From Romanomermis culicivorax (taxonomy: Eukaryota > Nematoda > Enoplea > Mermithida > Mermithidae): a DNA stretch of 64,000 bases. Where the stretch lies: assembly GCA_963922205.1 (NCBI GenBank), contig CAWUHX010000226.1, forward strand, positions 248,001 through 312,000, given 5' to 3'. Made by a program: the position numbers and the translations under genes. Shown piece after piece: positions 1 to 18,470 of the stretch (its first letter is position 1; each line of letters starts with the position of its first letter). Under the pieces are notes generated by a model that searched no databases, was not told the DNA's origin, and saw nothing but the letters and a program-made list of their open reading frames with translations.

Positions 1-1080
1 AGTCCTTGAACTTGATCGGGATCCTGACCTGTGGGAAGCCCTTGATAGTGAATGTGTATTCTCCCACCAGGGTTTGACCTGATCAATCTCAGCTGCTGTC
101 AATAGAAGTGGCAGTTCTACAGCATTCAACCAACAGACATTTTGTTGGTAATCAAATGTGATATTCTGGAATAGTTCTAGAAAATCCAATCCAAGAATCA
201 GATCGACGGGTGCTCAAAAAGGAGACATAGTCTTACAAACATGGAGATGTATATCCAATCTGGTGTGTGGCTGATGGGTTCCAGGCAACATGATCTCATA
301 CGGTCCCGATAGGTGGGTATGGACGGCCTTCCGATTGATACTCATCAATGGGTTAAAGTCTTGATGTTGCTGGAAGGCCATCACCGCCTTCAGACTCTCT
401 TTAATCAAGGCCTTGTGAAGACATTGACTAATGATGGTCCATGGACAGCCAGTGTCAAGGAAAGCTGGAGTTTCTTTGGCGTCAACCAGTATGATGAAAC
501 ACGAAGTGATTCTGTCTAAATGAGTCGGCACATGGTTCTGCATGTATTGAAAACTGACCCAATGTTGGACTTTACGGAAAAGGTTCAACGGAGAGTATTG
601 GCTAACAAACTGGACCTGTCTTTTCTGCAGGCGGTAGCTGAGATAATAGGATAACTCAACATAGATGAGATATCCTGCACTGGCCAGCACTGCCAGGGTG
701 ATAAGGGTGTTAAAGATCAACTGCACTGGTTCACTCAGGAGAGACTGTAAGCCCTGTATGAGATTATGCTGTTGACCAGTAATCACATGGTTTGCTGCCA
801 GACCAACACCTTCCAGAGAGGCCTTGATATCAGTCCCTACCCCTACAACTGCCTGATAGAGAGAATCTAATTGTAGGGATAGGCCAGTGGTAAAATTTAT
901 CAACCAGTTTAAGACCCCTTCAATTTGCTCAGTCTTGTAAACATATTGTTTAAAGAAAACAAAACTCGAAGGGCTCATTGCCAATTGATCGTGAAAGAGC
1001 ACAGGAGCGTCAAAGTGAGTGATGTTGAAGTGCTGTTTCCAGAAAAGTTCAAGTGGAATGTGGCTCACATGGCCCATGCC
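1..1080 (-). pseudogene. Retroelement env transmembrane part fused in frame to an aspartic protease
   Basis: Read on the minus strand, this is the downstream half of a retroelement ORF cut by the Polinton. The open frame runs from the Polinton border to a TGA at 214-216. It holds an ectodomain remnant with N-linked glycosylation sequons, a long hydrophobic membrane segment at about 455-640 with basic residues after it, then a retropepsin active site (LDTG near 450-460). Past the TGA the same frame continues into the conserved retropepsin C-terminal motif ILG (near 185-200), and the sequence then shifts frame near position 60 and continues off the window. Env followed directly by protease is unusual, because the normal order is gag-pro-pol-env. 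The TGA and the frameshift show decay. The glycoprotein assignment rests on cysteines, sequons and the membrane segment, not on a recognised family. Confidence 0.65.
1075..1080. repeat. Left target-site duplication of the Polinton (CATGCC)
   Basis: CATGCC immediately precedes the left inverted repeat, and the identical hexamer immediately follows the right one. Six base pairs is the known target duplication of Polintons. Confidence 0.93.
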
Positions 1081-1391
1081 AGTAGTAGGGAGACCCCCCC
1101 TTAGTCGTAAAAAGCTCCCGGGCCCATGCAAAAGATAGGCGCTGGACTTGAAAAAAAACGATGAGCTCCCCGGCCTGTACAAAAGATAGGCAAGCATTAG
1201 CTTGCCCAGATTTTCAACGTTTCAACCAGCTAGCTGCAAAAATATTCATTTTTTCAGCTGGCTAGCTGATAAAGTTTTCAGAACATGACTATCTATCCTG
1301 TCATGTACAAAAGATAGGCTAGCATTTTCTAGCCTAAAGGAACCAACTATAGCTGGCCAGCCAGCTTTTCGTCATCATTTTACTAGTTAAA
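1081..1391 (+). repeat. Polinton left terminal inverted repeat
   Basis: It matches the reverse complement of 16908-17223 with about eight substitutions and two indels (a C-tract of 7 versus 11, and one base near 1150). It contains AAAAGATAGGC three times (1130-1140, 1181-1191, 1309-1319). The first two copies lie in a 28-bp direct repeat, and the second and third are each followed by a short hairpin (1189-1206 and 1317-1334). Such subterminal repeats may be integrase sites, which is inference. Confidence 0.95.
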
Positions 1392-1919
1392 CAATATTAT
1401 TTTTACGATCGAGGGTTTTAGCAGCAGAAACGTAAGTTTTTTAAATTATGTATTGTTGTACAATATGTACCCGTTAGTACTGACCTTTTGGGCCAGTTCC
1501 GGCATCAGCCACGTGGAGGCCGGTACATATGTGATGCCAAGTATACCCCTTTTACAGGATATACCCGCCATACATTGTATGACTCGCAGTGCCCAACTCT
1601 AGGCCGTCATTGGCTTTCTCACCATGCACCTAGCGCCATTGCACTGCTTGCTTCTAAGTGACCCTAGGCCGTCATTGGCTCCTCACCATGCACCTAGTAC
1701 CCCATAGAAGCACTGCTCCTGCATAGCAGGAGCAAGACGAGTACAAACACATAAAAAAGACAAATACAAACACAATATAATGATAAATAAATATAAAAAG
1801 AAAATAAAAAAATAATGACTTCTACATTGTAGAAGCAAAAAAAATGAATTCATAAAAAAATAAATGACATAAGAAAATAAATAAAAAGTCAAAAATAAAA
1901 AATAAAAATATACACTAAC
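1392..1919. other. Polinton left spacer with a 65-bp-offset duplication
   Basis: No convincing gene. CTAGGCCGTCATTGGCT occurs at 1599-1615 and 1664-1680, and both copies are followed by TCACCATGCACCTAG, so this is a short tandem duplication. From about 1740 the DNA is very A-rich with many AATAAA strings, suitable as the polyadenylation region of the minus-strand polymerase gene. Confidence 0.55.
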
Positions 1920-4900
1920 TCACAAATCCAATGGCACCGTGGTTATGCCATCATCTAAAACTTTTCGCTTTATATAAAGATATGGCAAACCTTGCCTTTC
2001 TTGTAGATACGTCCACATTTGATTGTCAGGATGCATCCTGAATCCAATATTGGTGCCATAACTGGAGGTTTTTGAATCTAGCACTGATCTGTATTGATCA
2101 AACACTAAATTAGTTTTTTTCATTAACCCCTTGGAACTAATTTTTTTCTCTCCAGTTGGAGAGTCAATCCGGATATATGTCTTTGCTGCTAGGCAGCACA
2201 TGGAAGTCCCTTCGTATTCCTTTTTCAAAAGACCGGGGGTCCGTTTGGTAGCATCTGAAGTCACAAACCATTTCGGGTATACTTCTGTCAAAAATTTATC
2301 GCTAATATCTGGTTTCACAATGCCCAACAAATCAGGAGCTGACAATGCGAGGTAGATGCTGTCTGTATCCGTTTGCATGCACTGATAGTCCGATGGATCA
2401 AAATATTTTTTTAAAATATAAAAAAACTCTAACATACGGATTTTCGCCCAATTGTATACTGAAATACCAACTACAATGGGCACATCTAGAATTATTTCTT
2501 TTTTTCTCATTTGAACCTCGTAACAGTCTTCAGCTACAAACTTTATCCTTTTCATATAAGGACTGATGCTGAGCTCAGCCGCTTTTTCATAATCTGTATA
2601 AAATACTTCTGCGTGATTTTCTTTGTTGGTTAGAGTTTTTCCATATCCGGTATTACCCAGCAGTTTAAATGTATCGGCAATCATGCTTAGCTCAGGATTA
2701 CTATCCCCTTCCATTCTGTGTTTTGTTACTTTATCTTTAAAGGCTGCAAAAGGCCTTGTTTCATCAAATTGGATAACTTCGTGGAGTTTTTCAAGAACTA
2801 ACCCGTGTTTAATCAAAAATTGAATCATTGGAATCGATGAGGTAATTTCCTTACCAAAAAAAACTGCTAATCAGGTTTCTTCGTGGCGTTTTCATCTGAC
2901 CTGTCTGTTCTGCATATTGCTTCATAAGCTGACCAATGTCATTTATTGTGATTTCTGCGTGTTTTATTATTGGAGGAAAATCTGCATATTGATTTTTCAG
3001 ATAATCTGGAGTATAGATATCAACTTTTGCAAACCCGAAAACAGAACCATCGAAAATTGATTTTTCCATATCAAGTTTGTTCACATACTTTTGAAACTGA
3101 TATTTCCGAAAGAAATGGGGGTTTGCCTGTGCCCTTGCTTTTATGTAGTCTTGTCGTTGTTTTAACCATTCACATTCTCATATGGAAATGAGTCTATAGC
3201 CTAGTGATCGAATGTAAGCCTCTTTGGCCTTTCTTTTTTCGTTTTCCCCATTGCTGTCCTTCTTCTTGTTTTGATTGGAATAAGCGCAGTTATGGCAGTG
3301 CCAATAACAATTGTAGAACTCATAGATGGTGTTGGTTGTCTGGCAGAATCCATCCACGGGCAAGTGTCGTGGTCCTATGCATTTTTCTTTGCCATTCCCA
3401 ACATGTTGAATGCTTTGCCCACTTTTCCAACTTTCTTGCTCGAGCCACTCGACAGAAATGGGTTTTGAACTTATTACTTTTTGAAATTCATTTCTTTTTG
3501 GCACCCAATGATTGAAATGTCCTGTTGGGGTTGGCATAGATTGGGCCCATAGATATAATGCATTAAAATCTAGACCTACGATCGATTTTACAGGTTTCTC
3601 TGGATTGTTGCGAATGAAAGTTTCATCCTCAATTGCCAGCCGATTCATTACCATCGCCAGACCACCCCTCATGCTGGACTTAAGTGAGTAGTAGATATTT
3701 TTTGACTTACCTGAGAAAAGGGCAAATCGAGTGTCTGGAATGCTATTGAAAAGATATCTTTCGGTAACGCCGGGAAGGGAGCATGCCTCCCTAAAAATAT
3801 CTACTCCAAACTGTTCTCTGTAAATCTTGGTCATTACATTAACTGCTTCCAAGAAGGGGACGACATCCCTGAGGTTATAAAATATTAAAAAGTCCTTCAA
3901 AGATTTCATGCCATTTTCAACCCAATATTTTTGGCATGTTTCATAATCCTCGGTAGAAATTGATTCTTTTCGAAGGCTACTATAAAACGCTTCTTGTGGA
4001 GGTAGCATGTGTTCATTCAACTTTTCAAAAGTATCCAAATACTCATACGGGAACTTTGCTTTAGAAAGGGTGGCTCCGTAAGCTTTCATAAAAGAATCTA
4101 GACTAAAACCAGGAGCAACATACATTGAAATATCCAAGAATTTTAAGTTTTGGGTGGAGAGGCATAAATATGATCTATTCCTGAATATGGCCCTAGGCCA
4201 AGTTTTTCCATTTTCCCTCACTTCCTGGACAAGCTTCGGAAAAATGTTTCTTTTGATCAAATTTATGTCATATTTTGCAGAGTTGAACCCGAGACAAGTT
4301 AACTGACAACAATAGGTTACCAGTCGCCCTTTAACTGCTGCAATTGAGTTCAAATAACCTTTTTCTCTCCTGAAATCTATCTTTTTTTCCTTGAGTTCAT
4401 TAATATAGGCTGTGCATGTTTCAATAAGAGAGTTTAGATCTTCAAACACAGATTTGTACTGATCACATAAGATTTCTTTTTGCTTTGCACTGATTTGTTC
4501 TAGATGTGCCAACATTTGTCGAACTAATACATCAGGATCTTGCTCAACAAAACAAACTGGTTCAAAACCCGGAACATTAGTAGCTACAGCAAACGATACA
4601 GGTTGATGCTGTGCGATAAAAACCAATTTTTCTGAAGTTTTTTGGGATTTTTTGGCCAGTATGGACTCAAAATCGTACACTGCATAGAATGGGCAGAATC
4701 GCTGTACTTCATCTACAATAATTTCTAATTCTTCCAACTGTTCAAAAATGGTTTGCTTTACTTCGTAGACACCTCCTGGGAATTTGTGCACAGTTTTTCC
4801 TTCTTTACAGTGTAAATTCATATGATCATTCAATAATTTTCTTTTTCTAAAAAGGCGGCTGCAAAATATGCAGGAATATCGCTTAGCATACTGTTCTAGG

Positions 4901-6102
4901 TTTACGATGTAGCTGTAGTGAGCTTGTCTTTGTTCAGTGAAAGAAACGTCCAAATTTAGGAGCTTTTCATATTTTTGAACAACATTTTTCCAACAGAGTG
5001 CTATACCAGTCTTTTCATCTATATGAAATACTTGAATATCAATTTTGAACAAATTTTCTAGCATTTCTAAATCTGTATAGGGAACGCCCGGAAAAGTTTC
5101 TACAACTGAAGGTATTTTCTTGTTTTGGCAATATTTTACAAAAAACTTGAAAACAACATTTTTGTCATCAAAATTATTGGTGAGACATTCAGCTATACAT
5201 CGAAATGAGCATAGGTTATCCTTATACCTATTCTTTTGGCTATCGTGTGTCATGGCCAAAAGATTATGTCTTTGGTGTGCGAGGGGCTCAGGCAAACAAT
5301 ATTCTTTGCACCCAGCAACAAAGTTTTTTTGGGGTGTAACATAAAATTCGATATTTGTAATTAGTGAAAGCTCCCATTTTGTGTCTGGACGGGTGAAAAT
5401 TTCCTCTATATTGACATTTTTCAATATTTCAGTCAAACTTTTGATATCTTCCCCATTCTTAATTAGGACTGATTGTTCAAGCAATGTAAAGTTATTTTCG
5501 CATGCGTACCAGTATTTCAGTTCCCCACTTACCATATTTCGCAAAATACATCCAATTGCTCCATTGAGCCGAAAGCATTCTTTTTCATTAAAATATATGT
5601 CCTCCAACATTTTCCTGAAATCCCCGCCCATGGAACTCCAACGATAGTTATAAACATGATCGAGCAAATTTAAAGTTGACTTATTTGTCCTAATGAGCCT
5701 CCAATAATTTTCAATTTCATCCCGCATTTCTTCTGGGTAATCATCTAAATCTTCTGGACTTTCGGCATCCATGGGTGCTGGTTGAGAATTAACATTCCAT
5801 TCATTGAGGTTGCTTTCTGTTGAAACCTCTATTCCTGGCTTTACTAGTAGACATACATTGCTGTGGTTTTTACTGAATAATTCTGTTCGATTTCCAAAGC
5901 TTGCTCCACAGTAGTAGCAACTTAAAATACTGTGTTGTTTTGACCAATGTTTCTTCAATCCCTTTACCTGGGTAAATAAGGAGGAACATTGAGGACATCT
6001 GTACCTCCATCCCCTATGAACTACATTAATATGCTCATTCAGAAATCGCAAGTCTTTGAATACTTTTTGACAGTCCTCACATAAAAAAATGTCACTTTCC
6101 AT
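1920..6102 (-). pseudogene. polB: Protein-primed DNA polymerase B (Polinton PolB), two lesions
   Basis: The Polinton replicative polymerase. Translation starts at 6102. Two C2H2 fingers (C8/C11/H24/H29 and C36/C39/H52/H57) and a third Cys pair come first, with another C2H2 finger before the exonuclease. The 3'-5' exonuclease motifs are YDFE near residue 474, GFNSAKYD near 604 and YNLRD near 745. Polymerase motif A (DFNALYL) is near 845. Motif B (GNTGYGK) lies near nt 2630-2660 and motif C (DTDS) near nt 2350-2370. The reading frame is broken by an in-frame TGA at 3178-3180 and by a one-base frameshift at an eight-A run on the plus strand, 2856-2863, so motif A is cut off from motifs B and C. 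Everything else is collinear with the family, so the breaks look recent, or are sequence errors. It is transcribed divergently from the structural genes. Confidence 0.93.
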
Positions 6103-6948: not shown

Positions 6949-6958
6949 TATAAAAGTT
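6949..6958 (+). promoter_or_regulatory. Polinton promoter box TATAAAAGTT
   Basis: Exact TATAAAAGTT, 36 bp before the ATG at 6985. The ATG at 6973 would fall ahead of the expected transcription start, so 6985 is the preferred start. Confidence 0.65.
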
Positions 6959-7236: not shown

Positions 7237-8289
7237 ATGAATAACCTATTGGAAGAAATATACTATAACCCTGACACTGGATACTGCAGTGCCCAGAACC
7301 TTTATGAAAGGGCCAAAAAAGAGGATCCAAGTTTGAATTTATCATTTGTGAAAAAATGGCTGCAAAAGCAGTCAACCTATACTGTACACAGATATGCCAG
7401 GCGCCACTACACTAGAAATACTGTTCTGGTTAGTGATATTGATGAACAGTGGCAAATGGACCTCGCAGACCTCAGTTCCTTATCCAAGCACAATGATGGG
7501 TTCAAATTTATACTAACTTGTGTGGATGTTTTATCCAAATATGCCTGGGCGATCCCCCTAAAAAATAAGACTGGGCCTTCTATTCTAGATGCTTTCAATC
7601 TTATTCTTGATTCAGGAAGGAAGCCCCAAAAAGTCCAAACAGATGCTGGCACAGAGTTTACAAATAAACCTTTCCAGTCATTCTTAAAAAAGCAAAACAT
7701 TACCTTCTTTATAACTAATAGTGAGACCAAGGCTAGCATTGTGGAGCGTTTTAACAGGACATTGGAAGAAAGAATGTGGAGGTACTTCACCAAGAAAAAT
7801 ATGTACAGATATCTTGATGTCTTGCCTCATTTATTGTTGGCATATAATACGAGCAGGCACAGAACCATAGGAGTGCCACCTATTCAGGTGAATGATAAAA
7901 ATAAGGCAGAAATTGTAGAAAAAATGTTCAGCAAATGCAAAGTACATACAATCTTCAAGCTGGAACCTGGTGATAAGGTACGCATCAGCAAAGTAAAGAG
8001 AACCTTTGAAAAAGGTTACACTCCAAAGTGGAGTGATGAAATTTTCATTGTACATGAAAAGAAAGCCAGGCAGCCACCAGTCTATGTGATTAGGGATCAG
8101 TTGGGTGAAATTGTAAAGGGTATCTTTTATGAGCCAGAACTACAAAAGGTGGATGAAGTCTCTGATGTAGGTATTGTGGAAAAAGTTGTAAGGACTAGAA
8201 AAAAAGCTGGCAAGACTGAATATCTTATAAAATGGAAAGGGTACCCAGAAAAATTCAACAGTTGGGTGGCTGAACTAATTAAATTATAA
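7237..8289 (+). CDS. int: Retroviral-type integrase with C-terminal chromodomain
   Basis: Catalyses insertion of Polinton ends and the 6-bp staggered cut. In the 350-aa protein the rve/RNase-H-fold core carries the catalytic triad D75 (WQMDLADL), D136 (QTDAGTEF) and E170 (IVERFNRT), with 33 residues between the last two as in other integrases. The C-terminal residues 311-347 form a chromodomain (EYLIKWKGYP...SWV with the aromatic cage positions), known from some Polinton and Ty3-type integrases and thought to steer integration to modified histones. The ORF is intact and uninterrupted. It follows the small membrane protein by 33 bp. Confidence 0.95.
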   Translation: MNNLLEEIYYNPDTGYCSAQNLYERAKKEDPSLNLSFVKKWLQKQSTYTVHRYARRHYTRNTVLVSDIDEQWQMDLADLSSLSKHNDGFKFILTCVDVLSKYAWAIPLKNKTGPSILDAFNLILDSGRKPQKVQTDAGTEFTNKPFQSFLKKQNITFFITNSETKASIVERFNRTLEERMWRYFTKKNMYRYLDVLPHLLLAYNTSRHRTIGVPPIQVNDKNKAEIVEKMFSKCKVHTIFKLEPGDKVRISKVKRTFEKGYTPKWSDEIFIVHEKKARQPPVYVIRDQLGEIVKGIFYEPELQKVDEVSDVGIVEKVVRTRKKAGKTEYLIKWKGYPEKFNSWVAELIKL

Positions 8290-8356
8290 AATACAGTAAA
8301 CCATTTGTTCATTGATCCGCAAGTTTAGTTGGGCTGATCTAGGCACTTGAGTTTAC

Positions 8357-8365: not shown

Positions 8366-8410
8366 CAGAAATTATTGAACAATTTCATTCTGCAATTTTG
8401 ATTTGCTATT

Positions 8411-8689
8411 ATGGAGTCGAAAAAAGTTAAAGCTCCCATTGAATTATGTGCTCGTAATATGCCCCGGCCAATGTACCCACTTATGATGCAGTTATGCTAC
8501 TTTTGTCAAAAGAGTAGTTCAGAAAGGGAGTGTTTCCAGTCATCCCATGGTCGGACATACTTTACAATTGAAATGTGTCCAAAGTGCTTGGAATATAACC
8601 AAGCATTACAGGAAGCTGGTAAAACTGTGCTGTACAAGCAGCTGGAAGAAAGAGAAAAACTATTATTTAATATGCCAAAAAAAGAATAA
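8411..8689 (+). CDS. Small zinc-ribbon-like protein of the Polinton
   Basis: A 92-aa protein starting with ATG after a TATA-like box. It has two CxxC knuckles, C29-x2-C32 and C56-x2-C59, plus C13 and C41. This CxxC...CxxC arrangement is typical of zinc ribbons in transcription and RNA-polymerase factors. A charged helical C-terminus (residues 63-92) follows. I do not recognise a named family. Because this element also encodes a TBP homologue, a transcription-related role deserves testing, but the sequence does not show it. It is intact and stands alone, with over 100 bp of non-coding DNA on each side. Confidence 0.6.
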   Translation: MESKKVKAPIELCARNMPRPMYPLMMQLCYFCQKSSSERECFQSSHGRTYFTIEMCPKCLEYNQALQEAGKTVLYKQLEEREKLLFNMPKKE

Positions 8690-8794
8690 TTCTTTTGTAA
8701 TTAAAAACGTGACAAAAAAATTATATAATAAATAAATAAAACCAAAAAAAAATTATAAATATGAGTATATAAATCTGTCATGCAATCATCCATG

Positions 8795-8825
8795 CACAGG
8801 TGCACAAAGTGCACAAGTGCATAGA
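8795..8825. repeat. Clustered GTGCAC palindromes
   Basis: GTGCAC repeats within TGCACAGGTGCACAAAGTGC and the next bases. A related block (GCACAAAAGTGCAC) occurs at 9411-9424, about 30 bp before the ATPase TATA box. A control function is inference. Confidence 0.3.
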
Positions 8826-8915
8826 TGCCTTCACCCAGGATGGCTGCTGCGGGCCCCATATTCCTACAGTATGCTAATGACATGTGATTGTCAAGAACAA
8901 ATACTGGAAAAATTG

Positions 8916-8925
8916 TATATATAAG
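8916..8925 (+). promoter_or_regulatory. TATA-like box (TATATATAAG) before the 113-aa ORF
   Basis: TATATATAAG, 76 bp before the ATG at 8992. A weaker match to the element box. Confidence 0.35.
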
Positions 8926-8991
8926 TAGAAAAATGTGTAATCTGTTCAGTTTGTAAAATTTTCAGTCTACTGATCAGTTGGTTTCTAAAAA

Positions 8992-9333
8992 ATGGAGTGC
9001 ATTTTCACAACCATTGCTCTTAGATTGGGCACTTTTCTCTACAGACCCTATACGCAGCATGATGTGGCCAGATTTGCTTCGTTCTTTTGGGAGCAGGTAA
9101 CTAATAAATATAAAAGGCACTGGAAAAGTTTGGCCAACAATATTAATGAATCAGAGGGTCCTAGAGGCAGGAGAAAATTGACAGGATTTTGGCATTTTGC
9201 CAAAGCTTTGGAGGGGTTGGTGAAGACATTCAATGCTGAGCCATTGTTATATGAAATATGGATGAACATGACTCCAGAGGCAAGAAGTGAATTTTTTGAT
9301 GATGAGGATTCTGGTATTGATTGTACTGATTGA
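8992..9333 (+). CDS. Polinton protein of unknown function (113 aa)
   Basis: An intact ORF with its own upstream TATA-like box and A-rich 3' flank. The N-terminal half is aromatic and basic (YTQHDVARFASFFWEQ, then KYKRHWK), the middle basic (RGRRK), and the C-terminus strongly acidic (FFDDEDSGID). There are no membrane segments and few cysteines. I do not recognise it. It sits between the zinc-ribbon protein and the packaging ATPase on the same strand. Confidence 0.55.
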   Translation: MECIFTTIALRLGTFLYRPYTQHDVARFASFFWEQVTNKYKRHWKSLANNINESEGPRGRRKLTGFWHFAKALEGLVKTFNAEPLLYEIWMNMTPEARSEFFDDEDSGIDCTD

Positions 9334-9453
9334 TTGTATATAAGTTGGGGGAAAAAATTAAAAATAAAATATAGAAAAAAATAATAATAAAAATTTACAA
9401 AAATAAAAATGCACAAAAGTGCACGATTCTGGTGTATGCCAGGTGTTGCACAT

Positions 9454-9463
9454 TATAAAAGTT
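9454..9463 (+). promoter_or_regulatory. Polinton promoter box TATAAAAGTT before the ATPase
   Basis: Exact TATAAAAGTT, 48 bp before the ATG at 9502. It decides the start: the in-frame ATG at 9466 would lie upstream of any plausible transcription start. Confidence 0.7.
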
Positions 9464-9501
9464 AATTGACATTTATTTTCCATATAATAAATAAAAAAAA
9501 A

Positions 9502-10125
9502 ATGAGTATATACTTCAAGCATCCCTTTACATGTATTGTTGCTGGTCCAACCAAAGCTGGCAAGACAACATTTGTCAAAAATTTGATATTGAACATAGAA
9601 CATTTGATAAACCCTGTTCCCCAGCATGTATGGTGGTACTATAGTGAGAAACAGCCAGTCTATAGGGAGCTAGAGGGGAAGGTATCCTTCCTTCAGGGTC
9701 TTCCAGATATTAGCTTCATTAGGGAAATGTCACCAAAGCCTCAGCTGCTTGTCTTAGATGATCTCATGCAGGAAATGAGCTCTGATAGTCATCTGATTGA
9801 ACTTTTCACACGGGGTTGCCATCACTTGAATGTTTCTGTTATTCACATTGTACAAAATGTATTTTTCAAGGGCCTTCGTACTTCTAGAATCAATGCTGAA
9901 TATCTAGTGCTGATGAAGAATCCCTCTGACAAATTGCAAGTGAAAACTTTAGCAAGGCAGCTCTTTCCAGACAATGTAAAATATTTTTTAGAGTCTTTTG
10001 AGGATGCCACATTCCAACCTTTTAGTTATATAATTATTGACCTTTCTCAAACTACTCCTGAGAAACTTAGACTGAGAACTGACATTTTTTCAAAATATCC
10101 TACAGTGTACTTACCAAAAATATAA
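9502..10125 (+). CDS. FtsK/HerA-type DNA packaging ATPase (A32-like)
   Basis: The Polinton genome-packaging ATPase, predicted to pump DNA into the capsid. In the 207-aa protein the Walker A motif is GPTKAGKT at residues 15-22 and Walker B is LLVLDD near residues 82-87. Both match the A32-like FtsK/HerA superfamily of adenovirus-like and Polinton-like elements, and the length is normal for Polintons. I start at 9502, not at the ATG at 9466, because the TATA box at 9454 would otherwise be almost on the start codon and the extra twelve residues look non-coding. The stop is immediately followed by the next gene's promoter box. The ORF is intact. Confidence 0.93.
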   Translation: MSIYFKHPFTCIVAGPTKAGKTTFVKNLILNIEHLINPVPQHVWWYYSEKQPVYRELEGKVSFLQGLPDISFIREMSPKPQLLVLDDLMQEMSSDSHLIELFTRGCHHLNVSVIHIVQNVFFKGLRTSRINAEYLVLMKNPSDKLQVKTLARQLFPDNVKYFLESFEDATFQPFSYIIIDLSQTTPEKLRLRTDIFSKYPTVYLPKI

Positions 10126-10130
10126 AAGTT
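10121..10130 (+). promoter_or_regulatory. Polinton promoter box TATAAAAGTT
   Basis: Exact TATAAAAGTT overlapping the ATPase stop codon, 42 bp before the ATG at 10163. A pyrimidine-rich TTCTACAGAAA follows 25 bp downstream, initiator-like or alternatively a trans-splice acceptor. Confidence 0.7.
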
Positions 10131-10162
10131 GATCATTTCTTCTACAGAAAAAAAAATCAAAC

Positions 10163-10507
10163 ATGGCACAAGATCGTCTAAGACGTAATATTGACTACAT
10201 CAGAGTTATAGCGAAAGCTAAACCAAAACAGAGAAAAGCAATAATAAGTACAGCTGATAAGGATTTGATACTCTGTCTTTGTGAATGTATACTAAACATG
10301 CTCAGTGGTAATATAAAAGTTGACAGTGACACTCTGGACGAGTTGAATTCTCATAAAAAGAGTTTACGCATGTTAGCTGACAGAAAGACTGCTCTCAAGC
10401 AAAGAAAAGAAATTTTAGAACAAAAGGGAGGATTTTTACCAGTATTATTAGCACCTATACTAGGAATAGCAGGACAACTAATTGCTGATGCAATTACTAG
10501 AAAATGA
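10163..10507 (+). CDS. Conserved Polinton protein with GG processing site (114 aa)
   Basis: A short, very basic protein (N-terminus DRLRRNIDYIRVIAKAKPKQRK) of a type I recall as common in Polintons and adintovirus-like elements, placed next to the capsid genes. After a charged helical region it has QKGG at residues 87-90, followed by a hydrophobic tail (FLPVLLAPILGIAGQLIADA). The GG before a hydrophobic stretch resembles adenain cleavage sites, so it may be a processed minor virion protein. That function is inferred from position and composition. Its last codons overlap the next ORF: the TGA at 10505-10507 lies within ATGATG. Confidence 0.7.
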   Translation: MAQDRLRRNIDYIRVIAKAKPKQRKAIISTADKDLILCLCECILNMLSGNIKVDSDTLDELNSHKKSLRMLADRKTALKQRKEILEQKGGFLPVLLAPILGIAGQLIADAITRK

Positions 10508-11217
10508 TGCACACAAATAAAATGATACTTGTTCCCCATGATATTGGGCGAAGGGAGGAATTGGCAGCCAATGTAATGTCCAATTTGGATAGAGAAAAGA
10601 GTGAAATCTTACAAAACAGAGCTTTGCCCTCAGATGCCAAAGCTATTTTATATAATCAGGTTTTGCATAGGCACAGGCAAGCTGAGCAAGAACATACAAA
10701 ACCATTTGAACTAAGGATTTCCGAACCAGCTGCCCTTCCAGAAGTACAAGAAAAGGATATGGATGTGGAAGAAAAACATTCACCTGAGAAAGATGTATTG
10801 TTTCAGAAAACAATGAAAATTGTCCCTAGAAAGTGGCATAATCAGGCCAAAATGCTCTATGATTATGCAACCAACAATCCACATATGAGCTGGTCTGATA
10901 AGGGTGAAATGATTATTAGTGGTAATAAAATAACAGGGACTAATATTGTTGACATGATTTCTGATATTGTTAGAATGGGTTCCAAGAGGCAGCCTGCATT
11001 GGGAACAGATATATTTGTGAGAAATCTGGTTAAAGAGAATGTTCCCAGGGATCTTTTTGTAAATAAGTCCAGACTAAATTTGGGCAGTGATACTGAAGAC
11101 ATTTATGCCTCACCAACTGGGCTACCAGAAGGATTGAAAACCCCACAGTCTATGAGTAAAAAAGGAAGCACCCCAAGAAGTGGTGGCAGACTAAAGTGGC
11201 TAAATTTAAGAGCATGA
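10504..11217 (+). CDS. Conserved Polinton protein of unknown function (237 aa)
   Basis: Starts with tandem ATGs at 10504/10507 overlapping the previous stop. The in-frame ATG at 10522 (MILVPHDIG) may be the true start, since I recall relatives beginning near such a motif. The N-terminal half is charged and helical (DREKSEILQNRALPSDAKAI), the middle acidic, then a compact region with GNKITGTNIVDMISDIVR near residues 140-157, and a basic Ser/Gly-rich C-terminus that may bind nucleic acid. It is a recurrent Polinton morphogenesis-cluster protein without known function. There is no close TATA box of its own: the nearest, at 10312, is 192 bp upstream inside the preceding gene. Confidence 0.68.
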   Translation: MMHTNKMILVPHDIGRREELAANVMSNLDREKSEILQNRALPSDAKAILYNQVLHRHRQAEQEHTKPFELRISEPAALPEVQEKDMDVEEKHSPEKDVLFQKTMKIVPRKWHNQAKMLYDYATNNPHMSWSDKGEMIISGNKITGTNIVDMISDIVRMGSKRQPALGTDIFVRNLVKENVPRDLFVNKSRLNLGSDTEDIYASPTGLPEGLKTPQSMSKKGSTPRSGGRLKWLNLRA

Positions 11218-11222
11218 AAAAG

Positions 11223-11232
11223 TATAAAAGTT
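11223..11232 (+). promoter_or_regulatory. Polinton promoter box TATAAAAGTT
   Basis: Exact TATAAAAGTT, 57 bp before the ATG at 11280, with TTTATAGAAA 25 bp downstream in the same relation as at 10121. Confidence 0.7.
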
Positions 11233-11279
11233 ATCAATTTTCTTTATAGAAACAAAAGATATACATACATTTAGAAAAA

Positions 11280-11708
11280 ATGAGGCAATATTTTAATCCT
11301 GACAATTATGCAACTTGGCTCCAGTACTATACTGAGCAAGCAGACCAGACTGGCTATGGACGACTGGTGGGTTTCAAAGGCACCCCATACCAGCGTGGGG
11401 GAGGTTTACGTAACTTTTTCAGGTCATTATTCAGAATGGCAGTACCAGTCATCAAGTCAGCAGCTAGTCATATTGGAAAACAAGCCCTCACAACTGGGGC
11501 CCACACTGCTGGTGACTTAGCCCAACGTAGACCTGTTAGAGAATCTCTGGAAGAACATGGACGATCAGCTCTATCATCATTAGCACATAAAGCTAGTGAA
11601 GCATTACAACAACAGACTGGCAAAGGGCTTGGAAGTCGACCAAAGGATATAAAAGTTAGAAAGCAAGACATATTTTCCAGAAAAAAGAAAAAGCATGTCT
11701 CTCATTGA
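11280..11708 (+). CDS. pVI-like minor virion protein
   Basis: A 142-aa protein with an N-terminal acidic/aromatic segment, then a Gly-rich site YQRGGG at residues 37-42. An amphipathic helix (LRNFFRSLFRMAVPVIKS) follows, and then a basic C-terminus ending in a Lys run. This arrangement resembles the adenovirus pVI/pX-like proteins described in Polintons and adintoviruses, which are cleaved by adenain and disrupt membranes during entry. I assign it by this architecture and by position just before the major capsid gene, not by alignment. The 3' end overlaps the MCP start by 14 bp and contains the MCP promoter box. Confidence 0.65.
   Translation: MRQYFNPDNYATWLQYYTEQADQTGYGRLVGFKGTPYQRGGGLRNFFRSLFRMAVPVIKSAASHIGKQALTTGAHTAGDLAQRRPVRESLEEHGRSALSSLAHKASEALQQQTGKGLGSRPKDIKVRKQDIFSRKKKKHVSH
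11648..11657 (+). promoter_or_regulatory. Polinton promoter box TATAAAAGTT inside the pVI-like ORF
   Basis: Exact TATAAAAGTT, 47 bp before the MCP ATG and within the coding region of the preceding gene, so it is conserved under two constraints. TTTTCCAGAAA follows 25-31 bp downstream. Confidence 0.7.
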
Positions 11709-12999
11709 TTCAATTTCAAACATTAGTACAAAGTCTGAACTGGACTTTTTCACTGTGCCACCAACCCAGGTGGTTATAAAACGGGGCCAGTGGGATGAAA
11801 TAAATCCCATAAATCCTGTTACAAATGATGGACCATATGAATTCCGAATTCCACCAGACCCTCATATGATTCAACTGAGTAAAAATTATCTTTATATGGT
11901 TTTGAAACTAACTTACACAGCTCCTCGAGCTGGAGCTGCTGCTCCTGTAATTGCTCCAATCAATTTGATAGGTAAAACCTTTTTCAGACAAGTTAAGCTC
12001 TTCTTGAATGGTCGCCTTGTTCATGACAGTGGTGACAAGTATGCATATAGAGCTTTTATTGAAACTGACCTAAACTTTGGATATGATGCAAAGAACAGCC
12101 ATCTACAGTCCTCTCTTTACACCCTAGAGGCTGGGGATAAGATTGACACTGCAGAGTGTAAGGGGTTCAAAGATAGAGTCAAATATTTTGATAATGGGAA
12201 AATGGTGGAAGTAACAGCTCCACTACATATTGACTTGTTCATGCAAGATCGCTATTTACTGAGTAATACAGAACTAAAATTAGAATTAATTAGAAATAGT
12301 AATGCATTTGTTTTACAGTGTCCAGCTGGTGATGCTGATAATGCAAAACTTGAAGTTTCAAAGATAAAGCTCCTAATAAGAAAAGTTGAAGTCCTTGATA
12401 GTGTTGGTTTGGCATTAGAAAAGACCATTCTGAAAATACCAGCCAAATACCCCATCAGAAGAGTGCAAATGATGAGTCTTCACATCGCAAGTACCACACA
12501 GTCCACCCCATTAAACACATTGTTTACAGGGCAGTTGCCTCGAAGAATGATTATAGCATGTGTTGATGCAGATGCTTACCGTGGGGAATTGAGAAAATCC
12601 CCATTTAATTTTAAATGCTATAGTATAAGTGAAGTAAAAATTATTTCTGGTGGGCTCACATTCCCAGCCACACCGTTTAAACTTGATTTTACAAATGATA
12701 AGTACATTCGAGCTTATGACCAACTTTTTGAAACTCTAGACATTGCCAAAGACAATAAGGGCAATGGAATAACTAGAAGCAACTTTAAATATGGCCAATG
12801 TTATTTTGCTTTTGACTTAACACCTGATGAAGATGACAGTGGGCATTGGGATTTGATTAAGGAGGGCACAACTAGTATTGAGTTGACCTTTGCTAATAGA
12901 ATACCTGATACGGGTATAGAAGTAATAGTTTATGCAGAATTTGATAACCTGATAATGATTGATAAAAACAGACATATTTTTAATGACTATACTGCATGA
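11695..12999 (+). CDS. Major capsid protein (double jelly-roll)
   Basis: A 434-aa protein homologous to the widespread animal proteins labelled F54H12.2-like, which were identified as the Polinton double-jelly-roll capsid protein. Recognisable features are an N-terminal segment ending in VPPTQVVIKRGQW, the ...NFGYDAKNSHLQSSLY... block, and a C-terminus ending in VYAEFDNLIMIDKNRH, all typical of this family. Length is normal and the frame intact. It should form pseudohexameric capsomers. It has its own promoter box within the pVI-like gene. Its stop TGA overlaps the protease ATG (ATGA). Confidence 0.92.
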   Translation: MSLIDSISNISTKSELDFFTVPPTQVVIKRGQWDEINPINPVTNDGPYEFRIPPDPHMIQLSKNYLYMVLKLTYTAPRAGAAAPVIAPINLIGKTFFRQVKLFLNGRLVHDSGDKYAYRAFIETDLNFGYDAKNSHLQSSLYTLEAGDKIDTAECKGFKDRVKYFDNGKMVEVTAPLHIDLFMQDRYLLSNTELKLELIRNSNAFVLQCPAGDADNAKLEVSKIKLLIRKVEVLDSVGLALEKTILKIPAKYPIRRVQMMSLHIASTTQSTPLNTLFTGQLPRRMIIACVDADAYRGELRKSPFNFKCYSISEVKIISGGLTFPATPFKLDFTNDKYIRAYDQLFETLDIAKDNKGNGITRSNFKYGQCYFAFDLTPDEDDSGHWDLIKEGTTSIELTFANRIPDTGIEVIVYAEFDNLIMIDKNRHIFNDYTA

Positions 13000-13502
13000 A
13001 TACCAGTCAGATTTTAAGCTTATTAAAGAGTGATCAGGCTCTTGGACAAATTTTCAATGGGGTATTCCCTATTAATGCTATACCTTCTTGTGAGACAGTG
13101 CCTGCTGCACTCATTGTTAATCTGGACAGGCACAATGAACCTGGATCCCACTGGGTAGCTCTATACATTGATAAAAAACATAAATGTGATTATTTTGATA
13201 GTTATGGGTTAGAACCAAGTCAAACTCTGCTAAAATACATTGAAGAAAACTGCTATTCATTTAGGTACAATGAAAAATGTATACAAGACTACTTAACATC
13301 TACCTGTGGTCAACTATGCATTTATTTCCTCCTGTGGAGGGTGAGGGGTATCCCCTTGACAGATATTGTTAATAGCTTAGAACAGAGTTATGCTGATGAC
13401 TATGTAACTGGATTCATCAATGCCCTTTTTAGGACAAATACTGTGTCACATGATGAAGGTTTCATACTGGATCAGCTATGTAGAAACTATAAAAGTAGAT
13501 GA
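12996..13502 (+). CDS. Adenain-like maturation cysteine protease
   Basis: A 168-aa protease of the Ulp1/adenain clan. The catalytic set is visible: H52 in GSHWVALYID, D68 in CDYFDSYG, Q97, and nucleophile C104 in STCGQLC. It is predicted to cleave GG-type sites, and candidates exist in this element in the 114-aa protein (QKGG) and the pVI-like protein (YQRGGG). The ORF is intact and of normal length. Its ATG overlaps the MCP stop codon as ATGA, and I see no separate TATAAAAGT box nearby, so it may be made by termination-reinitiation from the MCP message. Confidence 0.93.
   Translation: MNTSQILSLLKSDQALGQIFNGVFPINAIPSCETVPAALIVNLDRHNEPGSHWVALYIDKKHKCDYFDSYGLEPSQTLLKYIEENCYSFRYNEKCIQDYLTSTCGQLCIYFLLWRVRGIPLTDIVNSLEQSYADDYVTGFINALFRTNTVSHDEGFILDQLCRNYKSR
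13488..13497 (+). promoter_or_regulatory. Polinton promoter box TATAAAAGTA before penton
   Basis: TATAAAAGTA inside the end of the protease ORF, 47 bp before the penton ATG at 13535. One mismatch to the consensus. Confidence 0.62.
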
Positions 13503-13534
13503 GCTATGTAAAATGCATGAAAAATAAAATAAAA

Positions 13535-14323
13535 ATGGATAGTTCATAATTTTTTGTAACCCTACCAAGTAATGCACAGAGTGATGCAAGTAATACTGCC
13601 TCTAATTTCACTGTAAGGTTACCATACAGACTCATTTTGCAAGGTGAATGGGAGTGTGCACTGTGTGAATTTATTTACCCCAATACTTGGTACAATATAG
13701 TACCAGATGACCATATAATTACATTTTATGATATTCAGACTAATACGAGTCATAAACTGAAAATACCATGCACACGGTACGAAGTGATTACTGATTTAGT
13801 TGAAGCAATTCAACAGTCCCTAATAGCATTGAGTGATCAGGAAAAGATCCCATATACACAATTTATTGATCTTTCTTATAGGAGACTAGCCAGGGTAGTT
13901 GTCTTAAAAATTGATCTAACAAGGATCAAAAGTTTTAATATGAGTGATCATTTATTGTACATGCTCGGCTTTGAAAGGGAACAACTCATCAAAGACCCAA
14001 CCAACCCTGATCGGCTAAAGGCTGCAGCTAAGCACCCCTCAGACATGAAAGCAGGGCTAGAAACCATGTATGTTTGTTGTAATATCATTGAGCAGCAGAT
14101 GGCTGGTGATATTCTGGCCCCACTTCTGCGTATTGTCAATATAGAGGGTAATTTTGGTGATATAATTGACAAAATATATATAGCCCCTCATTATATTCCT
14201 GTTCTGATAAAAGATATAGAAACGATTGACATTTCAATCAGGACTGATACTGATAAAGCTATCGAGTTTGTTACTGGAAAGACTATTGTGAAATTACACT
14301 TTAGAAAAAGAAGTTTATTTTAA
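13535..14323 (+). pseudogene. Penton/minor capsid protein (single jelly-roll), nonsense codon near the start
   Basis: The product is the Polinton minor capsid (penton) protein. The N-terminal signature, FFVTLPSNA followed by NFTVRLPYRLILQGEWECAL, is typical of the family and is in frame with the ORF ending at 14323. The best ATG is at 13535, 47 bp after a promoter box, but the fifth codon is a TAA (13547-13549). Downstream the frame is open for 258 codons with no other defect. Unless readthrough or a non-AUG start is used, the protein would not be made. Only 3 bp separate its stop from the ATG of the TBP homologue. Confidence 0.85.
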
Positions 14324-14326
14324 AAA

Positions 14327-14908
14327 ATGGATGTACAAAATATGACTGTAACAGCTGAACTAGGTTGTAAACTACACTTGAACTCACTTTTGAAAAAATT
14401 AGCTAATACAAGGTTGAGTGAAGGAAAATTTAAATCCCTAATTTGGCACATTCCTGCTCCCAAATGCTGTCTGTTGTTGTATGAAAATGGAAAACTGGTT
14501 TGTGTTGGCATCAAAACTGTTGATCAGGCAGTGAGTGGCATAGAGTATGCTACAGAAGTCTTTCTAAAGCTTGGCTATATGCCAAGGCCCAGAAAGTTTC
14601 GACCTTGCAATGTAGTTGGTTCCCACACAATGGATTGCCCCATCAATGTTGAAAATTTCTACAATGCTTTTAAAAGGCAGTGTGATTACACTCCTGAGTT
14701 GTTTCCTGCATTAAAATATGAAATCAACAAATTTGGACCTTGTGCCTTAGTTTTTCACAAGGGGAAGATTATTATCACTGGAGCACGATCAGTGGATGAA
14801 TTGCAAAGCTTTTTTGGAAATTTTCTCAGACTTGTTGAGAAGTACAAATGTAGTTCTCAAATTCAAGCAGATGAGTCACTGTCAGAGACACTGTATGAGA
14901 TAGTATAA
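14327..14908 (+). CDS. TATA-binding protein (TBP) homologue encoded by the Polinton
   Basis: A 193-aa protein covering a full TBP core with both saddle repeats, alignable by eye without gaps to the eukaryotic core over about 170 residues. Repeat 1 has N5 and LGCKL (12-16), then F35, Y52 and GKLVC. Repeat 2 has N95-VVGS, PELFP (123-127, with F126), F143, GKIIITGA (146-153). The two central TATA-contacting asparagines and three of four DNA-intercalating phenylalanines are kept, and the fourth is Tyr. In the stirrup that contacts TFIIB, one of the two acidic residues is Thr. The basic residues of the repeat-1 convex helix are lost (QAVSGIEYATEV), so cofactor contacts may differ. There is no intron. 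It starts 3 bp after the penton stop. Expected role: recognise the element's TATAAAAGTT promoters in the nucleus (inference). Confidence 0.9.
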   Translation: MDVQNMTVTAELGCKLHLNSLLKKLANTRLSEGKFKSLIWHIPAPKCCLLLYENGKLVCVGIKTVDQAVSGIEYATEVFLKLGYMPRPRKFRPCNVVGSHTMDCPINVENFYNAFKRQCDYTPELFPALKYEINKFGPCALVFHKGKIIITGARSVDELQSFFGNFLRLVEKYKCSSQIQADESLSETLYEIV

Positions 14909-14910
14909 AT
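14904..14910 (+). promoter_or_regulatory. TATA box (TATAAAT) before the small Cys/His protein
   Basis: TATAAAT overlaps the end of the TBP ORF, 42 bp before the ATG at 14946. The spacing matches the other boxes, the sequence less so. Confidence 0.45.
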
Positions 14911-14945
14911 ATCAAGGTTCTGAAGATTTTAATCACTCTGTGAAA

Positions 14946-15152
14946 ATGGAGCCTTGCAGGTTGTGCCGAAAAATTCCCATGCATAACTCCCACTATGCAG
15001 TGTGCAAATATGTCCAGTCTGGAAAATATAGGGAATCAGGACCAGATCCATTGATAATTTGTAAAGGAAAAAAGTCAATGTTGACAAGTCACTGGGATCA
15101 CAACTATAACATAGGATGTAAAATAATAAATGTGAAGAAGATGAAGCCATAA
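14946..15152 (+). CDS. Small Cys/His-rich protein of the Polinton (68 aa)
   Basis: Starts at the ATG at 14946 after an in-frame GTG. The N-terminus has C4-x2-C7, H13/H16 and C20, a possible zinc knuckle, followed by a basic region (KGKKSMLTSHWDHNYN) and a Lys-rich end. It is not recognised. Its position right after the TBP homologue, with a TATA-like box 42 bp upstream, supports a real gene of the element. Function is unknown. Confidence 0.5.
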   Translation: MEPCRLCRKIPMHNSHYAVCKYVQSGKYRESGPDPLIICKGKKSMLTSHWDHNYNIGCKIINVKKMKP

Positions 15153-15431
15153 AATGAGAAAACAGATGATAGTAAAGAACTGACAATATAACACAAAAAA
15201 TGAAAAAAAAAATAAATATAATGGAATAAAAAAAATGTTATTTCAAGTTGTCATGCTTATTTTCCATTTATCTTTTTTTGAAAATTTGTGAACAATAACT
15301 CGTGCATGTATTTGCAGGCATTTTAAAACAGAATCAGATAAAATAATATCAGATAAGATCAAAAACAAAACATTGTCAGAATGCCAATATGAAAATAATA
15401 TAGGCATCAGTGACATCCATAGAAAGAAGTC
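15153..15431. other. A/T-rich spacer between the viral-type genes and the F-box gene
   Basis: Contains AATAAA signals near 15210-15230 that may end the plus-strand transcripts. There is no TATAAAAGTT box upstream of the F-box ATG. Confidence 0.4.
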
Positions 15432-16749
15432 ATGATGGCGGATAAAGGTGCCTTCGAGAAATTACCAGCAGAAATTATTTCGAAAATTTTCAATTTTTTA
15501 TCACTTGAAGATAGAATCAAGTGTGAAAATTTAAACAGATCTTTTTGCACATTTCTACGAAATGATGTCATGCAATCGTCACATAGAACACTGGATATTA
15601 CGTTCAATGGCTCACTGCCATTAGATCGTCCATTGAGGTAATAAGACATTTTTATTTTTTGTTCTATTTTTTCATATGGTGATAATTGACAGAGATGCAT
15701 GTCCATGCATACCCATATTTTGTAAACTGCACTTGAAGATGACATCCTTTCCAAAAAATGTTCCTCTAAATTAATGGTCTAAAGGCATGAAACATCATAA
15801 TTATGTTTTAACATTTCATGCTTCAGTGTACGAAGAATGAATAAAGATGCCGTGGAACGATCCGTGGATTTGTACGGCCAAAATGTTATCCAACGTCGTC
15901 CATATGTTGAAATAATCACAGACTACATAGTCAACAATGACATTATGACCCGTTTGGATGTCTTGTTACGTCAAATTCGGCCTTATGCAATGGAAATTGC
16001 GGGGATGACCTGCCCAGGCCCTGTTATTTGCACCATCAGGCGCATATTGCCATTTTCACTTGAAAAAATCACATTTTTCTTTGCTTTTAAAAATTGTGAA
16101 AAAATTTTTGGTATGCCCCACATAAAATATATCCACTTGCCATTCTTGCAAGCAGTGGAAAAAATGCCACAATCATTGGAAATATTAAACATTTCTGATT
16201 GCGTTATTTTTCGGCCAGATCAAGTGAGGAACTTGATCTTGAATAGTCGTCTGAAAGAAATTGATTTTACGTAAGAAGAATTCATCTAAGATGGGGATTA
16301 AATTTAATACAGATTTTACAGGAACGTCAAATTGTCTGGGCATGTATTTCCAAGCATTATCAGCGCATGGAACGATGCCATAACACGAGGCTTTACTGAA
16401 GAAAAGTCCCCTTTGATTACATTTAAGTAAGCAGTAATAAAAAATGTACTGCATAAATGTTACATGGAAAACTGTAAAACTAGCAACAGCACTTTCAATA
16501 CCACTTTAGAAAGAATAAGATTCCCATTGCACATGTTCTATTCTGAAACATGTTCTTCCTTATTATGTTGATAACATTGCTTAACTTTTCAGAGGTGCAT
16601 GCACTTATGGCCTGCCCACAACCAGACCCAATGTTCATATTTTCAACAACACAGGGGAACAGCGGCAGAACAGTTGCACAGAATTTTATGGCAATGTTCG
16701 CGTAGTTTACATTGGAGGCGCCTGCAAAAAACATCCGAATAATCATTGA
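15432..16749 (+). CDS. F-box protein gene with three introns, carried inside the Polinton
   Basis: Exons 15432-15637, 15827-16270, 16322-16426 and 16593-16749 join in frame to 303 aa. All three introns are phase 2 with GT...AG borders (GTAATA, GTAAGA, GTAAGC donors; TTCAG, TTTTACAG, TTTTCAG acceptors). The third exon could start 9 bp earlier at 16313. Residues 8-45 form an F-box (FEKLPAEIISKIFNFLSLEDR...), the Skp1-binding module of SCF ubiquitin ligases. The rest has Leu-rich, strand-helix stretches (PQSLEILNISDC, RLKEIDF) that may be the substrate-binding part. Every other Polinton gene is intronless, so this looks like capture of host genomic DNA. It ends 158 bp before the right terminal repeat. 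It may redirect host ubiquitination, which is inference. Confidence 0.82.
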
Positions 16750-16907
16750 TTTTTTTTTTGTTGTAAGTGTTTTTTGGCAGTAATTGTTTTAGAGCTCATT
16801 TTTCGTTACTTTTTTTGGTAAAGCTCGTATGCATTCATTTTGCGTATTCGCCAAAAAAAATGTGGCGGTGCACATAAATTCTATACAGGTATGTAACAAG
16901 TTTTTTA

Positions 16908-17223
16908 TTTAACTAGTAAAATGATGACGAAAAGCTGGCTGGCCAGCTATAGTTGATTCCTTTAGGCTAGAAAAAGCTAGCCTATCTTTTGTACATGACA
17001 GGATAGATAGTCATGTTCTGAAAACTTTATTAGCTAGCCAGCTGAAAAAATGAATATTTTTGCAGCTAGCTGGTTGAAACGTTCAAAATCTGGGCAAGCT
17101 AATGCTTGCCTATCTTTTGTACAGGCCGGGGAGCTCGTCGTTTTTTTTCTAAGTCCAGCGCCTATCTTTTGCATGGGCGGGGGAGCTTTTTACGACTAAG
17201 GGGGGGGGGGTCTCCCTACTACT
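16908..17223 (-). repeat. Polinton right terminal inverted repeat
   Basis: Inverted copy of 1081-1391, ending CTCCCTACTACT. It has an 11-base G tract where the left copy has a 7-base C tract. The same AAAAGATAGGC motifs are present as GCCTATCTTTT. Confidence 0.95.
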
Positions 17224-17229
17224 CATGCC
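17224..17229. repeat. Right target-site duplication of the Polinton (CATGCC)
   Basis: Identical to the hexamer at 1075-1080. Confidence 0.93.
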
Positions 17230-18470
17230 AGACTCAGTAAACAAGACCAAGCGATTTTGGAAAATCCACGTAAGGTGATGGTCCCACAGCACTTTTGGGC
17301 TAAATTTAATGAGATCTGGGCCACCAGGGGTGGCAAAGTAAATGGTACCCCCAACCTGTATGGGTAGATACTTGTAACAGGTGTCTCCAAACTGGTACGA
17401 GTGGTAGACATACATGGCGTTGACCTTTTGACACGGCCATATTGTCAGTGCTTCACCCGTGAATTCTGCCATCAGGTCATTCCTTTGCAGAAATGCCTAG
17501 GCTCCTATTGTAGGGTCAAAAGAAGCAACTGCCAAGTCAGATCAAGGTGGCGTTGAGCGTGAGAGCAAAGCTTAAGCCACATGAATGAAAAATTGTTATT
17601 TTCTGATTCTTTGATCTGCTGAGCCAGGTAGTTCAGCTTGGCATTGACGGGGTCAGGATGAGAGTCCTCTGCCAATCCGAATAACCTTTGGGTCATATTA
17701 AATCTTCCGTGGATGCATAGAAGAAGACCCTGATCCATCCACACTGTGTTTAACCATGGGTCGGGACACAACCGGAAGACGCTAGAGTTTCCCGGGATCT
17801 TCAGGGTGACTTGCAAATCATTGATGATGATATGGTTCCCTGACACAGAGGCAGTGGAATTGCCCTGACGACGATAATGACACTGTGCTGTGAAGTTTGC
17901 TGCAGGCCAAACAATTACCCCGTCTAGAGTAGTGCATTGGCCTGCAGTGGGACTGCATCCACCTACATCTCCTAAGGTACTTAGAGCTGTAGTGCCATCC
18001 CACAAAGCGACATGTCCCTCCTCAATGAAGAGGTTAGTCACCGTCTTGCAGACCTCACTGAAGCACCATGAGTACATCATGTTCAGCCTTTGGTTAGTGC
18101 TGTAAAAGCCAGGGCATATTTCCACAAGCTTTTGTAAACCAAACACCTTCGTGTGATGTGCTAGGATACAAGCTGCAGGCGCATGCTGAGTGGTAATAGC
18201 GTCTGCAGTAATGCCCCTAGATCTAACAAAACCAGTGTTGGTGCACACCTTACAGTTACGCAAAGTGCACTCCCACACTAAAGTAGTGATTGGATCAGAA
18301 CTAGGAACATTCACTGTAATATTCACGGGTCACGGACTCCATGAAGATTTTGGTGGCTTACATTCAACTTTTTGAGCTAGCTCAAGTGGATGACGGCTTC
18401 TTGAAAGACCACAAAATTGGTACTGAGTAGCATGTATTGCAGAGCTCATTTCTAAGAACAGTAATGTCAT
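17224..18470 (-). pseudogene. Retroelement env-like glycoprotein, upstream part, interrupted and decayed
   Basis: Minus-strand ORF starting at ATG 18470 with a hydrophobic leader resembling a signal peptide, then a Cys-rich ectodomain with several N-x-S/T sequons (NITV, NFTA, NSTA, NSSV, NFSF, NMTQ). Breaks: in-frame TGA at 18330-18332; TAG at 17505-17507 with a frame change; TAG at 17497-17499 in the new frame; and the Polinton at 17223. The frame entering the Polinton is the same as the frame leaving it at 1080, because the inserted length is a multiple of three. I read it as an envelope-type glycoprotein of an LTR retroelement. The exact family (errantivirus-, BEL/Pao- or negative-strand-virus-derived) cannot be decided from sequence alone. 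Confidence 0.65.

Follow-up and report, generated by a model that had tools for sequence, protein, structure and literature searches.

The window, i.e., the whole stretch of 64,000 nucleotides analysed here, carries a complete integrated Polinton, and the 193-codon open reading frame (ORF) that follows its penton candidate was confirmed as a two-repeat TATA-binding protein (TBP) core with a predicted saddle fold. We propose that this TBP belongs to the Polinton, rather than being a stray host gene, and that it would serve the element's own late promoters, a reading to which we give nearly, though not quite, even weight. Virus-encoded TBPs are already known, and no description of a Polinton TBP was found among the open-licence papers listed in literature searches.

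The ORF following the penton candidate encodes a TBP core

An earlier note on this DNA had described the ORF as an intact, full two-repeat TBP core. The Pfam search returned PF00352 (TBP) with E=7.3e-37 in two matched stretches, at 125.5 bits against a curated cut-off of 22.9, and human TBP in the PDB was matched with E=4.8e-25 and 31% identity. At the local composition, 193 codons would run on without a stop with a chance of about 6e-7. The AlphaFold model, built on a 24-row alignment, had a mean pLDDT of 90.1 and a pTM of 0.78, and Foldseek superposed it on human TBP (1cdw) with E=2.9e-16 and TM scores of 0.84/0.91; all of the 44 Foldseek matches at E<=0.001 were, by title, TBP structures or TBP-containing complexes.

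The residues singled out in that note were all found as described, i.e., both central Asn (N5 and N95), the LGCKL, PELFP and GK..TGA motifs, and an aromatic residue in each of the four positions that intercalate, Phe in three (F35, F126 and F143) and Tyr, not Phe, in one (Y52). The basic residues of the repeat-1 helix are indeed replaced, so that its net charge is -1 in the window TBP and +4 in human TBP, and the EPE motif, whose acidic residues the note assigned to TFIIB contact, has lost one of the two to Thr122 (EPE becomes TPE). In addition, His41 and Glu132 stand where human TBP has the Arg of its MRI and YRM motifs, Val60 where it has the Thr of CTG, and FPGL reads FPAL. We take those Arg and Thr to be DNA contacts, and the identity of the intercalating Phe and the roles of the central Asn are likewise assumed. 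The view that DNA reading is conserved holds for the saddle core, which is kept, and does not extend to the two conserved Arg; binding to TATA DNA is predicted, and as these Arg are replaced it should not be taken for granted. A word-based search of 5.8 billion proteins gave two matches, of 25% and 30% identity, which indicates that the window TBP has no close relative there.

The TBP gene lies within an integrated Polinton

As listed in Table 1, the element spans positions 1081-17223 (16,143 bp), with inverted repeats of about 325 bp at both ends, each arm beginning with AGTAGTAGGG, bounded by 6-bp target-site duplications. With these termini, an integrase, a packaging ATPase, putative protease and capsid homologues and a presumed, broken PolB gene, it is a complete integrated Polinton, and the claim that a Polinton encodes the TBP is borne out by these features all around the ORF. 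The major capsid protein had 816 database relatives at E<=0.001; the best of them, at 77% identity, gave a double jelly-roll domain match with E=2.4e-5, slightly short of the curated cut-off. The capsid itself gave no match in Pfam, and its profile gave nothing credible against solved structures (best E=0.69). No Pfam match was obtained for the penton candidate. PHROGs gave weak matches only (E of at least 0.058), and no RNA genes were detected in the window by Rfam or ARAGORN.

Table 1. Features of the Polinton and of its repeated TATA-type motif, in window coordinates
Feature	Position	Strand	Basis or context
Left target-site duplication, CATGCC, 6 bp	1075..1080	.	read directly
Left terminal inverted repeat, starts AGTAGTAGGG	1081..1402	.	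inverted repeats I1, I2, I11
PolB gene, C-terminal piece	1920..2828	-	weak PF03175 match, E=0.0079, under curated cut-off
PolB gene (presumed), N-terminal piece with C2H2 fingers	3178..6102	-	label partly from position
TATAAAAGTT	6949..6958	+	288 nt upstream of integrase
rve integrase with chromodomain	7237..8289	+	PF00665 E=1.3e-11, PF00385 E=2.1e-9; 39% to L007
TATAAAAGTT	9454..9463	+	48 nt upstream of ATPase ATG
Packaging ATPase	9502..10125	+	PF04665 Pox_A32 E=4.8e-7, 29.9 bits (cut-off 22.8); 55% and 36% to two L007 pieces
TATAAAAGTT	10121..10130	+	42 nt upstream of 10163 ORF
Minor protein common with L007, presumably pX-like	10163..10507	+	42% to L007
TATAAAAGTT	10312..10321	+	inside ORF 10163-10507; 192 nt upstream of 10504 ORF
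Conserved protein common with L007	10504..11217	+	29% to L007, E=2.6e-19
TATAAAAGTT	11223..11232	+	57 nt upstream of 11280 ORF
Minor protein common with L007, presumably pX-like	11280..11708	+	37% to L007
TATAAAAGTT	11648..11657	+	47 nt upstream of capsid ATG
Major capsid protein	11695..12999	+	database relatives; 38% to L007
Adenovirus-type cysteine protease	12996..13502	+	PF00770 E=0.00037, just under curated cut-off; 38% to L007
TATAAAAGTA, near copy of TATAAAAGTT, upstream of penton candidate	13488..13497	+	
Penton candidate	13550..14323	+	36% and 30% to L007 6143-7201; label from earlier note and position
TBP, 193 aa, intact	14327..14908	+	Pfam, PDB match, AlphaFold model, Foldseek
Cys/His-containing ORF, 68 aa, directly 3' of TBP gene	14946..15152	+	no Pfam match
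F-box exon of a spliced-looking (GT-AG) gene	15432..15637; gene to 16274 and beyond	+	PF12937 E=8.4e-6, PF00646 E=5.2e-5, both over curated cut-off
Right terminal inverted repeat	16898..17223	.	inverted-repeat comparison
Right target-site duplication, CATGCC, 6 bp	17224..17229	.	read directly

A gap of 3 nt separates the stop of the penton candidate from the TBP ORF, which lies on the same strand and directly after that gene, as the note had placed it. This position bears on whether a diverged nematode TBP paralogue that serves the host was inserted into a dead element. We consider such an origin very improbable, since the TBP gene is intronless, shares the strand of the structural genes and follows the penton candidate so closely, since a second element of this kind also has a TBP (see below), and since the protein is so far both from human TBP and from the two database matches given above.

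The two pieces of the broken PolB gene are separated by an in-frame stop and a change of frame, and the 5' end of the penton candidate is interrupted by an early in-frame stop, so that this Polinton copy is damaged, although the TBP frame is open. The TBP could then be a fossil, which served an ancestral virus and is now drifting, with the lost Arg and the Tyr as signs of decay; the two broken genes and the very long branch of the window TBP (2.41 in the 27-row tree described below) agree with such a history. We regard it as quite improbable, because the 193 codons hold no stop and the AlphaFold model is of high confidence, and because the two arms of the terminal repeat differ at just 12 of 321 aligned bases (with 6 gap columns), which suggests an insertion too recent for most of the TBP divergence to have arisen since.

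The F-box gene is possibly a ubiquitin-ligase adaptor carried as cargo. Outside the element, long ORFs flank both ends on the same strand (214-1197 and 17505-18326, both minus); Pfam gave no match for either, and they look like pieces of a retroelement envelope-type gene split by the Polinton insertion. The 7tm_1 and Srx/Srt receptor families are typical of nematodes, and four ORFs in the right host flank at 24736-48626 match one or other of them, which makes a nematode the probable host.

A second element carries a related TBP

A capsid-alignment scan of prokaryote genome contigs returned one relative, L007, a metagenomic contig of 11.6 kb that is filed under a Planctomycetota MAG and is taken to be misbinned there. 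Nine proteins, TBP included, are common to L007 and the window Polinton in a stop-to-stop comparison, a count that leaves aside one further short match and the shadow matches on opposite strands; the contig is not a complete element. Judged from these predicted proteins, L007 represents another element, distantly related to the first, that has a TBP, and the TBP is not limited to the window Polinton, which answers, for elements in general, the objection that the gene might exist in one copy only. The earlier note had suggested looking in other Polintons for a TBP next to the penton gene; in L007 the TBP gene lies beside the ATPase gene. A possible tenth common gene lies at 8402-8686 (+) and matches L007 1723-2097 with 33% identity over 48 aa (E=1e-5).

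The L007 TBP (Pfam E=1.9e-45) is 46% identical to human TBP and 31% to the window TBP, with no change at any of the four Phe, at either Asn or in the EPE motif. Its gene adjoins the ATPase gene divergently, on the opposite strand, whereas the window TBP gene follows the penton candidate on the plus strand. In a tree of 27 rows, 18 of which came from database TBP matches (none of the 27 is from a nematode; L003 and L012 were left out), the two element TBPs paired with a support of 88/78, not starred, so the pairing is not decisive. Both of them (2/2) carry FPAL, whereas the last repeat reads FPG in all 120 of the best 120 of 7946 database TBPs (119 by pattern and one by eye) and FPA in none. 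The profile search behind this set scored 8000 candidates, and many of the best 120 are archaeal; further element TBPs may lie beyond the best 120 of the 7946 matches.

The charge of the repeat-1 helix was also compared, with the pattern found in 128 of 129 rows (P0080 was dropped, and L003 and L012 were left out). It is -1 in the window TBP and 0 in the L007 TBP, +2 to +6 in 22/22 eukaryote-type rows (human, Arabidopsis and 20 database proteins with the letters IVST) and +4 to +5 in 5/5 large-virus TBPs (L001, L002 and L004-L006). The 99 other rows, mostly archaeal, span -4 to +6, so that helix charge alone is not diagnostic. Both element TBPs lack the positive repeat-1 helix patch that is bound by host regulators.

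These comparisons bear on whether the gene was gained once. Each element could have acquired a cellular TBP separately, as cargo without a settled role, and the different position and strand of the two genes, the closer identity of the L007 TBP to human TBP than to the window TBP and the indecisive tree support would be expected then. We consider separate captures unlikely, given that FPAL and the missing helix charge are common to both proteins, that they pair in the tree and that the TBP ORF is intact within a damaged copy. One ancestral TBP gain, not two captures, is favoured by these shared sequence features.

A repeated TATA-type motif lies upstream of the structural genes

The commonest 10-mer on the plus strand of the element is TATAAAAGTT, with six copies on this strand and none on the minus strand, and it occurs on neither strand in the 46,770 bases that follow the element on the right or the 1,080 bases on its left. 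Shuffled sequences held a mean of 0.093 copies, and none of 1000 shuffles reached six. Four of the six copies lie 42-57 nt upstream of the starts of the ATPase, the two minor-protein and the capsid genes; those at 6949 and 10312 do not. On random placement, four of six copies fell near starts in 0/100,000 trials, with a 35-65 nt window that was chosen after the sites had been seen. We report TATAAAAGTT as a new finding, a putative extended TATA box that is repeated upstream of the structural genes. TATAAAAGGC stands 74 nt before the PolB gene, and for ORF 8992 the motif is TATATATAAG. Upstream of the window TBP gene no close TATA was found, and since this gene starts 3 nt after the penton candidate, the TBP may come from the same late transcript.

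Two observations on the motifs count against a role at late promoters. We take TATAAAAG to be a canonical TATA, so that host TBP could use the Polinton promoters unaided, and TATAAAAGTT occurs on neither strand of L007. Two genes of that contig have TATAAAAAG upstream, at -34 and -94, and a further copy lies within the ATPase reading frame. L007 also carries three copies of GAGTGTCTGGACACTC, one at 1095 on the plus strand and two on the minus strand within 110 bases of the far end, both of the latter upstream of the ORF starting at 11437.

Proposed role of the Polinton TBP

A function of the window TBP at late promoters is what we infer from these features. Once the element is activated, the TBP would bind TATAAAAGTT upstream of the ATPase, minor-protein, capsid and penton genes, and would help host TFIIB and RNA polymerase II to start there. 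We propose that TAF1, TFIIA or Mot1 would have little hold on a TBP whose repeat-1 helix is devoid of the positive patch, and that this weak hold would favour the late genes of the element over host genes. No TFIIB-like domain was found among the element ORFs scanned, a scan that genes with introns or diverged genes may escape, which makes host TFIIB the probable partner.

In the passages of PMC7221094 that deal with viral TBPs, these proteins keep the DNA-binding positions and lose N-lobe positions used by TFIIA, TAF1, Mot1 and Brf1/2, and an escape from host control is suggested for them; according to the same passages, almost all TBP-bearing viruses, poxviruses apart, encode a TFIIB-like protein. 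With kept DNA-binding positions and a lost N-lobe regulator patch, the element TBPs fit the first part of this pattern. Unlike those viruses, the element shows no TFIIB-like domain in the ORFs scanned, which counts against the late-promoter reading, as do the two conserved Arg lost from the window TBP, the change of one TFIIB-site Glu to Thr, and the damaged PolB gene and penton candidate of this copy. A hijacking or orthogonal factor, as the note suggested, would fit the missing regulator patch; a TFIIB of the element's own, as in an orthogonal viral TBP-TFIIB pair, did not appear among the ORFs scanned.

The window TBP might instead act mainly on the host, by occupying host TATA boxes or tying up TFIIB without normal TFIID assembly, so that host transcription would be lowered while the element is active. 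The absent regulator patch, which would make eviction by Mot1 weak, and the change of EPE to TPE would suit such an action; we hold it to be unlikely, as the TATAAAAGTT repeats upstream of the element's own genes point to a target in cis and as the EPE motif is kept in the L007 TBP. On the late-promoter reading, TBP-bearing elements may help to switch on their own genes. A wider proposal, possible and rather more doubtful, is that a Polinton lineage inherits a TBP without the host-regulator surface, which would act on an extended TATA box specific to the element, TATAAAAGTT, together with host TFIIB and RNA polymerase II. Such a minimal promoter system would do without an RNA polymerase or a TFIIB of viral origin. 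If true, the presence of TBPs in both of these distantly related elements, and of a repeated TATA box in one, would mean that a general transcription factor can be supplied by small nuclear DNA elements. Whether a single protein is enough for a virus to shield its promoters from TFIID and Mot1 could be tested directly in this system, and the compact, diverged TBP would be material for studying minimal TBP requirements.

Comparison with known TBPs and Polintons

The window TBP is like eukaryotic TBP (PF00352; human 1nvp and 1cdw) in its two-repeat saddle, both Asn and three of the four Phe, and differs from it in its low identity (31%), in lacking the helix patch and the long N-terminal extension and in being encoded by a Polinton. 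Polintons are generally regarded as dependent on the host for their transcription. White spot syndrome virus (WSSV) is larger than a Polinton and a different virus.

The window element resembles Polinton/Maverick and adintovirus elements (compare PMC4028283) in its terminal inverted repeats, 6-bp target-site duplication, integrase, ATPase and putative protease and capsid homologues. TBPs of giant viruses and phycodnaviruses, which are virus-encoded as the window TBP is, appear in passages of PMC4602308, PMC12085832 and PMC11464507; according to these, such viruses also have TFIIB or TFIIIB-like factors and one has RNA polymerase subunits, neither of which was found among the ORFs scanned of the 16-kb element. 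A virus-encoded TBP of eukaryote type is described for mirusviruses in part of PMC10132985. WSSV, a DNA virus of animals, has an annotated TBP in the passage concerned of PMC1550435. The TBP passages found in the virus and element literature concern giant, algal or mirus-type viruses or elements. No description of a Polinton TBP was found among the open-licence PMC papers listed, 40 of 142 matches in one search and 12 of 519 in another, in agreement with the earlier note, and neither TATA nor TBP is mentioned in PMC11071296 or PMC11071308.

Relatives in virus and phage collections

Viral-contig scans (IMG/VR) with the window TBP alone, with the capsid alone or with capsid alignments A4 and A5 returned no relative, and as the capsid scans were empty too, IMG/VR is uninformative on this Polinton lineage. 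The TBP-alignment scans returned seven different contigs, from 12.7 to 132 kb in length, which are taken to be large viruses. The analysis covered the ORFs of L001-L006 and, for L012, its TBP ORF only; the TBP DNA of L003 is identical to that of L002. From gene content, probable mirusviruses are among L001-L006, and the TBPs of L001, L002 and L004-L006 differ from the element TBPs in their positive helix and in forming a separate branch of the tree. When the L007 TBP was compared with the phage collection by tblastn, one TBP of a haloarchaeal virus was matched.
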